27,402 bases of DNA from a virus, in IMG/VR virus record IMGVR_UViG_3300029813_000232, positions 1 through 27,402 of that record. The stretch is one strand, 5' to 3'. Both the position numbers and the translations under genes were made by a program. Each line of letters opens with the position of its first letter. Within the stretch, counting starts at the first letter, position 1. The notes under the pieces were generated by a model. That model was not told the DNA's origin and made no database searches. It saw only the letters and a program-made list of their open reading frames with translations. Shown here piece after piece: positions 17,088 through 27,307 of the stretch.

Positions 17088-17795
17088 TTACATAGCCTCG
17101 TTGTGCGCGTACGGGTAAGCAAGGCTTACGCCAAGCAACCCGCTTGCTTCCGTGACGCCAATTACAGCACCAATGATCAGATCGCCGCTATCGACTCCGG
17201 GCGTCATCACCTCTCCGGCAACTCCGCTGTAGAGCGCGAGACCGGCGACGAGATGAATACCCTTGTACTCGACCGTCGCGGCCGCAGTGATCTTGTTGAC
17301 ATTGAAGACATCGCCAGCCGCAACGGCGCTGCCCTTGGCGGTCGCCAGAGCATTGTCGGTCACGTCGCCCGTGGCTCCCACCAGGAAGTGATCACCAACT
17401 TCAATGGCAGATCCCTTGGCAACGTACAGTTCGCCAGCCTCGGCGGCGATAAAGGCATCAATGTCAGCATCTGCCTCGTCGGTCACCGTCAGTTGGATGG
17501 TGTCGTGTACGCCTCTGGCTATCACGTTATGACCTGCAATCTGGTACCAGCCGAACTTGTCGGCCCCGATCGCGGCCATTGCGATGGCGACCAGCCCCTT
17601 GGCACTGGCCACCAGCCGTGCTGTTACGGCTACGGCGGTGCTTGTGATGTAATACGTCACCCAGTCGCCCGCCACGGTGCCTACGATACCTTGCAGGTAG
17701 ACGAAAATATTACCGTCTCCGTCTTCGTGGCGGGTGCCGATGTCGAACCGTGCAGTGCTGTCAACGTCAGTAAGTCCGCGAATTAATGTAGTCAT
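17088..17795 (-). CDS. Capsid decoration-like protein, long paralogue with inserted module
   Basis: A 235-residue protein. Residues 1-95 and 180-235 align closely with the 157-residue neighbour (DVDSTARFDIGTRHEDGDGN; SAKGLVAIAMAA; KFGWYQIAG; GDLIIGAVIGV). Between them sits an extra segment of about 80 residues with two AKG hairpins (YVAKGSAIEVGDHFLVGATGD; ATAKGSAVAAGDVFNV) and EYKGI, matching the insertion in the adaptor at 14747-15826. It is probably displayed on the outside of the capsid. Its placement just after the major capsid gene supports this. A minor capsid or stabilising role is an alternative. Confidence 0.65.
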   Translation of the reverse strand: MTTLIRGLTDVDSTARFDIGTRHEDGDGNIFVYLQGIVGTVAGDWVTYYITSTAVAVTARLVASAKGLVAIAMAAIGADKFGWYQIAGHNVIARGVHDTIQLTVTDEADADIDAFIAAEAGELYVAKGSAIEVGDHFLVGATGDVTDNALATAKGSAVAAGDVFNVNKITAAATVEYKGIHLVAGLALYSGVAGEVMTPGVDSGDLIIGAVIGVTEASGLLGVSLAYPYAHNEAM

Positions 17796-17807
17796 CAGTT
17801 CACCTCC

Positions 17808-18281
17808 TTACGCTGTTGGTGTTACGTCATTGACGCTCGGGTAGTTAAGGGATACGCCACCCTTATTGCCAGCCCCCAGTACACTGCAAACCGCGCCAAC
17901 AATCAAGTCGCCGGTGCCTTTAGCATCATCAACCCTCGCTGCTGTTGCAGTCGAGTAAATGGCGGCACCTGCGGCGCACCCCGTGAGCACGCTGGCCGTC
18001 AGGAGATTGCCCGCGATCATGTACCAACCGAACTTGTTGGCCACGGTCGCAGCCATTGCGATGGCGACAAGCCCCTTAGCGCTTTGCACCAGCCGCGCTG
18101 TTACCGCAGCGGCAACGCTCGTGATGTAATACGTCACGAAGTCCCCTGCCGCAGTGGTTACGATACCCTGAAGGTACACGTACACGTTGCCGTGCTTGTC
18201 CGACCGGCGCGTGCCGATGTCGTACTTAGCGGTGCTGTGAACGTCAGTGATCGCACCATGAGTCAATACAGGACTACTCAT
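17808..18281 (-). CDS. Capsid decoration-like protein, short paralogue
   Basis: A 157-residue protein, Ala/Gly/Thr-rich and beta-type. It shares with the next gene the blocks STAKYDIGTRRSDKHGN, VYVYLQGIVTTAAGD, TARLVQSAKGLVAIAM, KFGWYMIAG and GDLIVGAV. It lacks the AKG insertion and therefore shows the basic fold. It lies directly downstream of the major capsid gene, with AAGG-type Shine-Dalgarno sequences before both paralogues. The pair looks like a tandem duplication in which one copy gained a module. Confidence 0.65.
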   Translation of the reverse strand: MSSPVLTHGAITDVHSTAKYDIGTRRSDKHGNVYVYLQGIVTTAAGDFVTYYITSVAAAVTARLVQSAKGLVAIAMAATVANKFGWYMIAGNLLTASVLTGCAAGAAIYSTATAARVDDAKGTGDLIVGAVCSVLGAGNKGGVSLNYPSVNDVTPTA

Positions 18282-24349: not shown

Positions 24350-24535
24350 TCACCACCCATAATCTATTTGTGAGGGGTATTTTCTTGCGTACTCTTCTAG
24401 TGTCATGTTTAATAAGTCTCTCATCCTTTGTTCTTCCCTCTCTATTGCCCGGCAAAGTAGGGCCACATGATAGTCATTTAGCGGAACGGTTGTTCTTACT
24501 AACTTGGTTACCCAGGGAAATTTAACCCTTACCAT
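24350..24535 (-). CDS. Small helical protein after TerL
   Basis: 61 residues; the start overlaps the end of TerL by 7 bases, with GGGGA 7 bases before the ATG. The content is helical and charged (LNDYHVALLCRAIEREEQRM; NMTLEEYARKYPSQIDYGW). No domain is recognised. Overlap with TerL suggests it is made together with the packaging proteins. Confidence 0.55.
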   Translation of the reverse strand: MVRVKFPWVTKLVRTTVPLNDYHVALLCRAIEREEQRMRDLLNMTLEEYARKYPSQIDYGW

Positions 24536-26037
24536 TCGTACATCCCCGTCGGGCTATCCTCCCGCATCAGCTCCTCGATCTCCTGGCGAAGTTGCGGCAC
24601 AGGCTCCGCTGGCTTGATGCCCTGTTGCACGTGCATGATGGCATATCTGGCCGCCTCCAAGGCATCATCCCCACCGTCGGGGATATCCTCCACATCGTGT
24701 GCGTCCCGGACTGCGCTCATTATCTGTGCCTCAAGATTAGGGCACTTACCCTTGATGATGTAAAATTGAGGGGTCTTGGTTAACTTTGTCGCAATATCGC
24801 CCTCCCAATCCATCATCCGGTGCATTAATGCCCAGCCCTGCTTGCGATCCTGGTTGGCCGCAACGATGTTTATTCCACCCGCAGCAAACGCTGCAGCCTC
24901 ATGCTTTGCTACGTACTCCGGGGTATCCTCTCGATTCCAGGCCATTGGATTACGTATCCAGAAATCCCGGCCTCCGTAAGTGTAATCAATCCTGTCGTTG
25001 CCCGTGTGCCTGTGAATCTGCTCACATAACCATTGGGGACTCTTTTCGGTCTCGTGGATCTCATCATAAAAATAGACATTACCATCGCCGTCTACTCTCA
25101 TAAACTCGCAACAAAACGGTGCGGCAAAGCCTCTGTCAAGACCCCTGATCCCAGTCCACCAATCCGGTATATCGAACTCAGGGATAATGTGAATCTGCTT
25201 ACGGAACTTGGTAAAGAACTGCCCTACAAACAGGTCCCAGTTGCCGGTCAGGATCGCCTCTGCCAGGAGCGGCTCGCTCATGCCCCTGATACGTCCCTCA
25301 TAGCCTGGATCAGATAACATCAGTGTGGGATTATCGAACCGACTTGCCGGGATGAACGCTCGGGAGTAAGAATCTTTGGTACCTTGGGGAACCTCTATCT
25401 CCTCCCACTCATCAGTCTCCGATACACGCCCTCCCCAGAAGAACTTTGGGACCGGTCTCCGGCTAGGGCTAGCCGGAACCTTATCAATAAATCTGTCCTT
25501 GACCCACTTATGCCCCGGGCCGCCAGGCATCGCCGATGATCTCACGTAGCACCTGAGACTAGGATCAGTCGTCCGGCACCGACTAAAAAGATAAGTGTAC
25601 TGGGCCTCGGTGAAATGTGTAACTTCATCAAAACCAATAAATTGAAACTCTCGCCCCTGGTATTTAAGCCGATCTATCTCATACTGCATGTAGCGGAGCC
25701 ACACTCGGGCGCCACTGGGGAATATACCTGTATTATCCGACTCCCGGTAAATACCTCCGGCTGCCGGGAACATCTTCCGAGCCTCGATCTTGATCTGCTC
25801 CAGCTCATCATTAGTACGCCGGAATATGATCGCGCGGTAATTGGGGCTGTTAACCTGGCGGAGAGACTCGGATGTAAGTGCAGCGGTCTTACCGCCACCT
25901 GCCTCACCACCATAAAGTAGCTCGAAAATATCGTATGACAGGTGAAAAAGGGTCTGCTGACCCTCATGGGGTATGTAAGTCGGCGGAAGTGCTCCGGGAG
26001 AGCTAATCATCAGTGCCAGGATCAGGACCCTCAACAT
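24529..26037 (-). CDS. terL: Terminase large subunit (packaging ATPase/nuclease)
   Basis: 502 residues from the ATG at 26035-26037, which has AAGGAAGG just upstream. The ATPase has Walker A GGEAGGGKT (residues 43-51) and a Walker B FIGFDE (D137-E138). The RNase H-like nuclease half contains GIRGLDRGFAAPFCCEF with its acidic residue and, near the end, DGGDDALEAARYA, the usual closing acidic motif. It drives DNA through the portal and cuts the concatemer. A later ATG (26008-26010), which overlaps the small-subunit stop, would remove an unusual apolar leader (MLRVLILAL) and could be the true start. Confidence 0.92.
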   Translation of the reverse strand: MLRVLILALMISSPGALPPTYIPHEGQQTLFHLSYDIFELLYGGEAGGGKTAALTSESLRQVNSPNYRAIIFRRTNDELEQIKIEARKMFPAAGGIYRESDNTGIFPSGARVWLRYMQYEIDRLKYQGREFQFIGFDEVTHFTEAQYTYLFSRCRTTDPSLRCYVRSSAMPGGPGHKWVKDRFIDKVPASPSRRPVPKFFWGGRVSETDEWEEIEVPQGTKDSYSRAFIPASRFDNPTLMLSDPGYEGRIRGMSEPLLAEAILTGNWDLFVGQFFTKFRKQIHIIPEFDIPDWWTGIRGLDRGFAAPFCCEFMRVDGDGNVYFYDEIHETEKSPQWLCEQIHRHTGNDRIDYTYGGRDFWIRNPMAWNREDTPEYVAKHEAAAFAAGGINIVAANQDRKQGWALMHRMMDWEGDIATKLTKTPQFYIIKGKCPNLEAQIMSAVRDAHDVEDIPDGGDDALEAARYAIMHVQQGIKPAEPVPQLRQEIEELMREDSPTGMYEW

Positions 26038-26407
26038 CACCTTCCTTAACCGGTAGGATCACCGGGCCAAGATTAAGTCCCTCGATCTCCAGCTCTCCGC
26101 GCTGATGGGGTCTGCCACTCTCCCTATCCTGGATCAATTGCATAGCCTTAAGGGCAATGCTACGATCTGCATCAAAAAGAGCCAACAATACCACCCTATC
26201 GGCTATTGCCCTCCGCACCTTGCGTCTGCTTTTACCGGGCAACCCTCCCCGAACAGCAACAGTCCCAACAGCCTCCTCCATAATCTCACCATAAATGTCC
26301 GCCCATGCATCGCCTTTCTTGGGCCTACCCGCCGGGTTACCCGACTGGCCGGGCTGCCAAGGTGCCCTTAGCCCTGTGGTGTTGTGAGGTTGTTTTGCAC
26401 CGCTCAT
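26003..26407 (-). CDS. terS: Small-terminase-like protein (DUF5681 type)
   Basis: 134 residues. The N-terminus contains WQPGQSGNPAGRPKKGDAWA, the signature of DUF5681-type proteins that commonly precede TerL. Helices and a basic KSRRKVRRAIADRV segment, then an acidic tail, follow. It would recognise phage DNA and hand it to TerL. It overlaps both neighbours (ATGA with the upstream gene, 35 bases with the TerL frame). The role is inferred from family and position. Confidence 0.75.
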   Translation of the reverse strand: MSGAKQPHNTTGLRAPWQPGQSGNPAGRPKKGDAWADIYGEIMEEAVGTVAVRGGLPGKSRRKVRRAIADRVVLLALFDADRSIALKAMQLIQDRESGRPHQRGELEIEGLNLGPVILPVKEGDVEGPDPGTDD

Positions 26408-26673
26408 AGGAGATCCGTCTCTTCCGGCGACTTAAATGGAGCCTCCCCCTCTGGCGGTGGCATCACCTCGCCTGGGTGCTCATCCCCACGTGCCTGGGCC
26501 ATAGCCCTTGCGCTCATCACAGTGGGATACTCGATATCAATGTCTCCGGGCGGTGAGGGAGCAAATAGGCCGGGTGGTATCAGAGGGACCCCGGTGGCTA
26601 TCCTAGCCCCCAGCCAAGCGCCCAGCATGGCAATGATAGCTCCGGCAACCAGCATAATCAGATTACTCTCCAT
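26404..26673 (-). CDS. Small single-pass membrane protein
   Basis: 89 residues: a transmembrane helix at the very N-terminus (LIMLVAGAIIAMLGAWLGAR, residues 5-24) followed by a Pro-rich, acidic soluble tail. The stop overlaps the next start (ATGA). The start at 26673 has no obvious Shine-Dalgarno; a candidate minus-strand promoter (TTGCGC 26704-26709, TATATT 26680-26685, 18-bp spacing) would give a nearly leaderless mRNA. It is the first gene of the leftward block. Function unknown. Confidence 0.6.
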   Translation of the reverse strand: MESNLIMLVAGAIIAMLGAWLGARIATGVPLIPPGLFAPSPPGDIDIEYPTVMSARAMAQARGDEHPGEVMPPPEGEAPFKSPEETDLL

Positions 26674-26744: not shown

Positions 26745-26773
26745 GTTAAAAATAAGTGGAAATTATGTATAGT
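26745..26773 (+). promoter_or_regulatory. Candidate plus-strand promoter
   Basis: TATAGT (26768-26773) is preceded by TG and by an AT-rich stretch with TTAAAA (26746-26751) 16 bases upstream. Transcription would begin near 26780 and include the structured leader of the gene at 26946. The -35 box is poor. Confidence 0.35.
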
Positions 26774-26806
26774 GGGTGAAAATAACTCTTGCGGCCCTCT
26801 AGCGGC

Positions 26807-26905
26807 GGGGCTAAGTTGTGATCGTGGATGTAGCGCCAAAATACCCAAACACACAACTTGCCCCCGGGTCCGGTGCAATCCTACCCTCCTTGGTGCTGCA
26901 TCCAC
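26807..26905 (+). ncRNA. Structured leader with two interleaved long helices
   Basis: GGGGC-T-AAGTTGTG (26807-26820) is complementary to CACAACTTGCCCC (26852-26864): 13 pairs with one bulged T. A 16-base segment starting GTGGATGTAGC (26824-26839) pairs with 26890-26905 (ending TGCATCCAC): 16 pairs with two G-U wobbles. The order A-B-A'-B' means the helices either form a pseudoknot or exclude each other. The linker between A and B is only 3 bases. The segment lies between the likely promoter and the ribosome site of the plus-strand gene, and also next to the small-terminase gene. A riboregulator, a small RNA or a DNA packaging site are all possible; I recognise no known family. Confidence 0.6.
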
Positions 26906-26945
26906 AGCCGGGCTTGGGGGTACTATCTCTGAAAGGGATAAGACC

Positions 26946-27218
26946 ATGACACAAAAAACTCATTGCATTGCAATCGAAAAGGAAAATGGCGAGTACGCCG
27001 GAGAGCTCTTAGATGATGGTTGGCAACCACCTCACACAGGCGCCCTCAAAAAGGGAGACCGAGTCTCAGTTGGATTGGATGGTTGGCCCACTCGCCTAGC
27101 GTATACCATAACGTCCCTTACAAGCCGTCAGATCGAGTTGTCCGGCACAGATACTGACCAGGTCTTGAGTGATCTCAGAATCTCTAAGCGGACAGGCAAG
27201 GCAATACTCAGTCCCTGA
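26946..27218 (+). CDS. Hypothetical protein of the divergent unit
   Basis: 90 residues; ATG at 26946 with GAAAGGGA 7 bases upstream. The frame is open upstream to 26772, but that part runs through the structured leader. MTQKTHCIAIEKENGEYAGE, then DDGWQPPHTGALKKGDRVSV, and a final basic SKRTGKAILSP suggest a small beta protein. It is the first gene of a plus-strand unit divergent from the late genes. No family is recognised; the long leader suggests regulation at RNA level. Confidence 0.65.
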   Translation: MTQKTHCIAIEKENGEYAGELLDDGWQPPHTGALKKGDRVSVGLDGWPTRLAYTITSLTSRQIELSGTDTDQVLSDLRISKRTGKAILSP

Positions 27219-27224
27219 TTACCA

Positions 27225-27271
27225 TGCCCCGCCCGACCAGCAGGCTCCCAGGTGCAAGCCCTGGGCGGGCA
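27225..27271 (+). other. Strong hairpin between the two plus-strand genes
   Basis: TGCCCcGCCC (27225-27234) pairs with GGGCGGGCA (27263-27271), nine pairs with one bulged C. Inside, CAGGCT and AGCcCTG can stack on it. No U-run follows, so it is not a simple terminator. It may be an mRNA-processing or stabilising element, or another regulatory leader for the next gene, whose AAGGAG starts 24 bases later. Confidence 0.5.
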
Positions 27272-27307
27272 CGTTGAACAATGACCTAACATCCAAGGAG
27301 TAGAATA

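Follow-up and report, generated by a model that had tools for sequence, protein, structure and literature searches.

The divergent gap and its genes

The window, that is the whole stretch of DNA analysed, is an IMG/VR virus record of 27,402 bp and probably represents a fragment of a phage genome. It encodes an SU10-like portal together with an Mx8/BUCT555-type capsid protein, and the phage structural and packaging genes identified in it all lie on the minus strand, left of position 26673. At this end of the window, the minus strand carries the large terminase (24529-26040), a DUF5681-containing protein in the small-terminase position (26003-26407) and a small gene (26404-26673) that is unnamed in PHROGs and Pfam. 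The product of the latter resembles a membrane anchor, with an N-terminal membrane segment, and could be a packaging or lysis accessory. A divergent unit occupies the + strand from 26946 on, its first gene being an ORF of 90 aa (26946-27218, with its ATG at 26946). In the gap between the two lies a structured element (26806-26940), which an earlier note had assigned to the leader of a divergent gene beside the small-terminase gene. The divergent gene is as described, but on the other side it is the membrane-anchor-like gene that adjoins the gap; the small-terminase gene comes next, ~400 to 540 bases away from the structured leader.

The 90-aa protein matches no PHROG, Pfam or phage family. It is predicted, from its single sequence, to form an all-beta domain (pLDDT 75.6), and a fold search with the predicted structure gave no significant match, so that the product offers no functional hint. 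Upstream of its ATG is a 7-bp hairpin with a GAA loop (26924-26940, + strand; -5.1 kcal/mol alone) which holds the Shine-Dalgarno-like motif AAGGG and has a pair probability of 0.993 in the ensemble. A G+C-rich hairpin that lacks a T run (27225-27272, + strand) separates the 90-aa gene from the + strand ORF that follows; its folding energy is ordinary (z -0.17).

Elsewhere, the window carries a tRNA-Met (CAT) gene on the minus strand (606-681, with an Rfam tRNA match at 608-680) and related domains that recur in the genes following the capsid gene (ITDVHSTAKYDIGTR / LTDVDSTARFDIGTR). These domains occur in two genes of the window (17088-18281, minus strand) and in three matching stretches of the related contig L222 (9091-10482), and the genes possibly encode capsid decoration proteins.

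Three long helices on the + strand

Three pairs of complementary segments crowd the + strand of the gap. Helix B (26824-26839, GTGGATGTAGCGCCAA, with 26890-26905, TTGGTGCTGCATCCAC) consists of 16 pairs, two of them G-U, exactly as noted before. Helix A (26806-26820, CGGGGCTAAGTTGTG, with 26852-26866, CACAACTTGCCCCCG) had been given as 13 bp with one bulge; the pairing itself stands, but it comprises 14 pairs over 15 positions, including one U-G pair, and is interrupted by a C-C mismatch. The order A-B-A'-B', the span of 100 bases and the gap of 3 nt between A and B (26821-26823) had been described correctly. Overlooked at that time was helix C, in which 26859-26874 (TGCCCCCGGGTCCGGT) and 26907-26922 (GCCGGGCTTGGGGGTA) form 16 uninterrupted pairs, five of them G-U. 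Its 5' arm overlaps the 3' end of A', the upper 8 pairs of helix A (26813-26820) being compatible with it, and the full order of elements on the + strand is A - B - A'/C - B' - C'. The ribosome-site hairpin starts one base after helix C.

The GGGGG run close to the ribosome site, which had been suggested to compete for A', sits inside helix C. A pairing of this run with the anti-Shine-Dalgarno strand (26914-26921/26925-26932) was considered and rejected, as it is weaker (-4.2) than the Shine-Dalgarno hairpin itself (-5.1). The 5' arm of helix B contains a start-stop pair, ATG TAG (26828-26833, + strand), probably by chance, with no evident ribosome site before it. This arm has no second copy within 2 mismatches in the window, nor an exact copy in the other loci.

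That the pairing is beyond chance, as had been supposed, was confirmed by dinucleotide shuffling, with an interleaved score computed from a pair of crossing helices (here B with C). The leader scores 75, whereas 10,000 local shuffles (166 bases) never exceed 57 and 825 whole-window shuffles, covering both strands, never exceed 67; elsewhere in the window, scores peak at 53 and 59. Among 2,000 local shuffles, one gave a helix of 16 and two gave a pair of helices that each reached at least 13. Across 3.08 Mb of comparison DNA, both strands included, there is just one other place (in L198) where both crossing helices reach at least 15 bp, and that site is a tandem palindrome repeat; the leader is the only non-repetitive place of this kind in the 3.08 Mb. 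A score of 78, higher than that of the leader, was obtained with helices of 17 and 14 bp in L005 (Stenotrophomonas phage BUCT555), where dense, crossing, G+C-rich complementary stretches make up a repeat cluster within an annotated gene (264-556). The nested minimum free energy of the leader is ordinary (z -1.2), so that an ordinary folding scan would miss it. It is the crossing helices, and not the nested energy, that are unusual here, and scans for nested energy as well as Rfam look-ups pass over this leader though its crossing helices exceed all shuffle controls.

One could still invoke coincidence, or inverted duplications that have decayed and have no function, on the grounds that conservation could not be demonstrated from one sequence. 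We consider this extremely improbable, as none of the 10,000 local and none of the 825 whole-window shuffles reaches the score and as, except for the one C-C in helix A, all non-Watson-Crick positions of the three helices are G-U pairs on one and the same strand. Such strand polarity is weak evidence alone, because each helix was found with G-U pairs allowed, and it counts mainly since helix C is invisible as DNA.

Viewed as DNA, helix C has 11 of its 16 positions matched, with a longest run of five; its five G-U pairs would be mismatches in DNA or in minus-strand RNA, so that the helix exists solely as + strand RNA. For helix B, 14 of 16 positions are matched as DNA. The minus strand of the same stretch has a best interleaved score of 38 (vs 75 on the + strand) and folds no better than its own shuffles. 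A sigma-70-like promoter candidate (TTAAAA, 16 nt, TATAGT; 26746-26773, + strand; 9 of 12 matches) would start an RNA near 26780, a weak indication alone, with 2 such sites found where 0.9 would be expected. A coding function of the leader was rejected, as the upstream extension of the ORF in its own frame has a codon score of -0.309 per codon, compared with -0.003 in the 90-aa ORF. The strand of helix C, the promoter-like site and the poor codon score together argue for a + strand leader RNA and against a DNA site, in agreement with the earlier proposal of an RNA-level feature in the leader of the divergent gene. We therefore read 26806-26940 as the structured 5' leader of the 90-aa gene and infer that it is transcribed.

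Inverted repeats near terminase genes might instead constitute a DNA signal, either a packaging site, as had also been suggested, or a replication origin. The proximity to the small-terminase gene (~400 to 540 bases) and the 14 of 16 matched positions of helix B would be compatible with such a signal, but the 11 of 16 of helix C are not, there is no sharp change of base composition at the site within the window, and no interleaved inverted repeats comparable to these were found in the corresponding gap of 18 relatives that share the gene order. The packaging suggestion thus found no support, and we regard a DNA signal of either type as very improbable.

Folding of the leader and access to the ribosome site

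With only 3 nt between helices A and B, a classical H-type pseudoknot in which both coexist is barred, because this linker would have to cross helix B; from this short distance, the earlier note had concluded that A and B probably exclude each other and that a switch is favoured. Helix C permits another arrangement. The upper 8 pairs of helix A and 15 pairs of helix C form two directly adjacent hairpins; the 5' arm of B occupies the loop of hairpin A, flanked by 3 nt on its 5' side and 12 nt on its 3' side, and its 3' arm that of hairpin C, with 15 nt and 1 nt on the respective sides, which makes B a helix between the loops of two neighbouring hairpins. The linkers of 3 nt and 1 nt are at the opposite end of helix B from the 12-nt and 15-nt linkers (B to A' and C to B', respectively), and as the latter can span a 16-bp helix, coexistence is feasible. 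The necessary winding is possible because transcription produces the 3' arms one after another (A', B', C'), each with a free end. On such geometric grounds, all three helices can be drawn together, as two hairpins and a loop-loop helix, and the pseudoknot that had been proposed as one reading of the leader is plausible in this form. By rough energies, the two hairpins contribute -34.8 kcal/mol and the loop-loop helix about -32 before any topological penalty, so that the three helices together could beat the best nested fold (-46.8).

A bistable switch would alternate between hairpins A and C on one side and helix B with 26811-26817/26911-26917 on the other, with a ligand, a protein or temperature selecting the state and so altering access to the ribosome site. 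Two nested folds do nearly tie, within 0.5 kcal/mol (-59.2 vs -58.7), but 76% of shuffles show an equal or smaller gap in a fold-gap test on 26801-26925. The ribosome-site hairpin, with its pair probability of 0.993, is drawn in the B-forced fold as well, which leaves the switch without a visible output, and the ribosome site was rejected as output on the basis of nested folding. Nested folding also gave no riboswitch-like folds that alter access to the ribosome site or to a terminator (no + strand terminator was found), and there is no match to a riboswitch family. As A, B and C may in addition coexist, the argument from mutual exclusion is not upheld, and we consider a switch unlikely.

The reading that we favour, with slightly better than even confidence, is that of a kissing-hairpin leader RNA (26806-26940) which acts in cis to control the divergent unit. 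Hairpins A and C would form side by side in the + strand RNA and their loops would pair over up to 16 bp (helix B), resulting in a compact pseudoknotted domain that is directly followed by the ribosome-site hairpin of the 90-aa gene. With the 3' arms emerging in the order A', B', C', folding could proceed stepwise during transcription. We infer a regulatory role: the compact block, separated by one base from the ribosome-site hairpin that follows it, would set translation initiation and mRNA stability, and probably be tuned by a bound protein or the ribosome. A bolder proposal is that the leader constitutes a novel class of fold among phage leader RNAs, where adjacent hairpins are locked co-transcriptionally by a 16-bp loop-loop helix and control the first gene of the divergent operon; taken jointly with control by protein binding, antitermination or translation, we put this forward as tentative and rather doubtful.

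Relatives and known systems

The leader matches none of the 4227 families of Rfam 15 at E values up to 10. No homologous leader was found in IMG/VR, phages or plasmids, and DNA similarity searches of phages and plasmids returned only two short chance matches. A covariance model built from the single sequence and run over 0.8 Mb recovered only the leader itself, the second match (E 0.88, on the opposite strand at the same place) not being significant. IMG/VR was scanned with the terminase, the capsid, the 90-aa protein and a helix-B DNA pattern, which yielded one fairly close relative only (L222, identical to L297, the same contig); its large terminase is 54-57% identical, its capsid 50%, and the contig has 55% GC. 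A scan of genome contigs gave distant capsid relatives only, and none of the sequences found is near enough for the leader to be aligned.

Scans with capsid motifs revealed a group of phages that share the gene layout. A profile search detected the small membrane gene, with weak sequence conservation, in many related loci (including L208, L209, L213, L214, L216-L219 and L222), several loci in this search being the same contig under two ids. Where the gene order was mapped, this gene precedes the small-terminase gene, and the divergent gap between it and the first opposite-strand gene is a location conserved in relatives. In the 18 related loci compared, the gap extends over 147 to 439 bases from the membrane gene to the first opposite-strand ORF, and these first ORFs mostly differ from one another. 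Among the 19 divergent leaders scored, that of the window has 75, and none of its 40 shuffles exceeds 50, while the interleaved helices in the gaps of all 18 relatives are within the range of their own shuffles. The leader fold is therefore not essential to the phage group, as 18 relatives have the same layout without it. The three-helix leader appears to be specific to the lineage of the window and is most likely a lineage-specific cis-acting RNA.

The gaps are AT-rich in 17 of the 18 loci, the exception being L222. There, the leader has another hairpin design and precedes a different first gene; it is 270 nt long and, over 220 nt, more stably folded than its shuffles whichever strand is taken (z -2.7 and -2.3). 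Judged by its motifs (CNMACEHCC, FSGGEPSL, CxxxCxxC), the first divergent gene of L222 (1-357, minus strand) looks like a radical-SAM QueE-type enzyme.

The variability of the first divergent genes, as in a region of accessory exchange, would also suit a stable non-coding RNA or decoy that is released from the leader and acts in trans, for example on host defence or by intermolecular B/B' pairing. A compact fold would serve such an RNA, and its 16-nt complementary loops could pair between molecules. We nevertheless find this quite unlikely, as the ribosome-site hairpin and the ATG follow just one base after helix C, with no Rfam family match and no sign of processing.

Should the three-helix fold of the cis-acting leader prove true, it would represent a natural loop-loop RNA, compact and unusually long, in a phage of an uncultured host, with a regulatory role open to direct test; if false, it would usefully caution against relying on complementarity in one sequence without relatives. 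The case is that of one sequence, testable and so far without family membership or comparative support.

Complementary loops are known from another phage RNA. The packaging RNA of phi29 has two of them, and their pairing is short and occurs between molecules. The leader shares the complementary loops, but forms a 16-bp loop helix, has no Rfam match and is found in a phage with an ordinary terminase pair.

The put elements of HK022 (putL and putR) suppress pausing and termination via the zinc-binding domain of RNA polymerase and, like the leader described here, consist of an adjacent pair of hairpins in a nascent phage transcript. By analogy, the leader might be an antitermination or anti-pausing element that acts on RNA polymerase at the head of the divergent unit. 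Its compact double hairpin lies just downstream of the weak promoter-like site (26746-26773), and putL, with ~70 nt and two stem-loops, is located directly 3' of PL (PMC9378689). The architecture, however, is unlike that of put, whose published description includes a triplex in stem I but mentions no loop-loop helix of 16 bp, whereas the leader would have such a helix and spans 117 nt. As the window stops 457 bases past the ATG, there is also hardly room to examine downstream terminators. We rate an antitermination element as decidedly improbable.

A further comparison is with the gene 32 leader of T4 and RB69, an autogenous translational operator in which a pseudoknot precedes the ribosome site of a phage mRNA. 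The leader of the window likewise has the complementarity to form a pseudoknot ahead of its ribosome site. There are clear differences: the gene 32 pseudoknot comprises ~28 nt, compared with ~117 nt and three long helices here; the ribosome site there lies after it, in a UUAAA-rich stretch with less structure, whereas here the ribosome site is in a hairpin and 26923-26945 (CTATCTCTGAAAGGGATAAGACC) has no UUAAA; and the gene 32 product is a single-strand-binding protein, to which the 90-aa product has no detectable relationship. The gene 32 pseudoknot is itself not kept in all relatives, no indication of it having been reported for the T4-like phage RB49 (PMC535899). By the same token, absence of the three-helix fold from distant relatives of the window does not refute a function of this leader.
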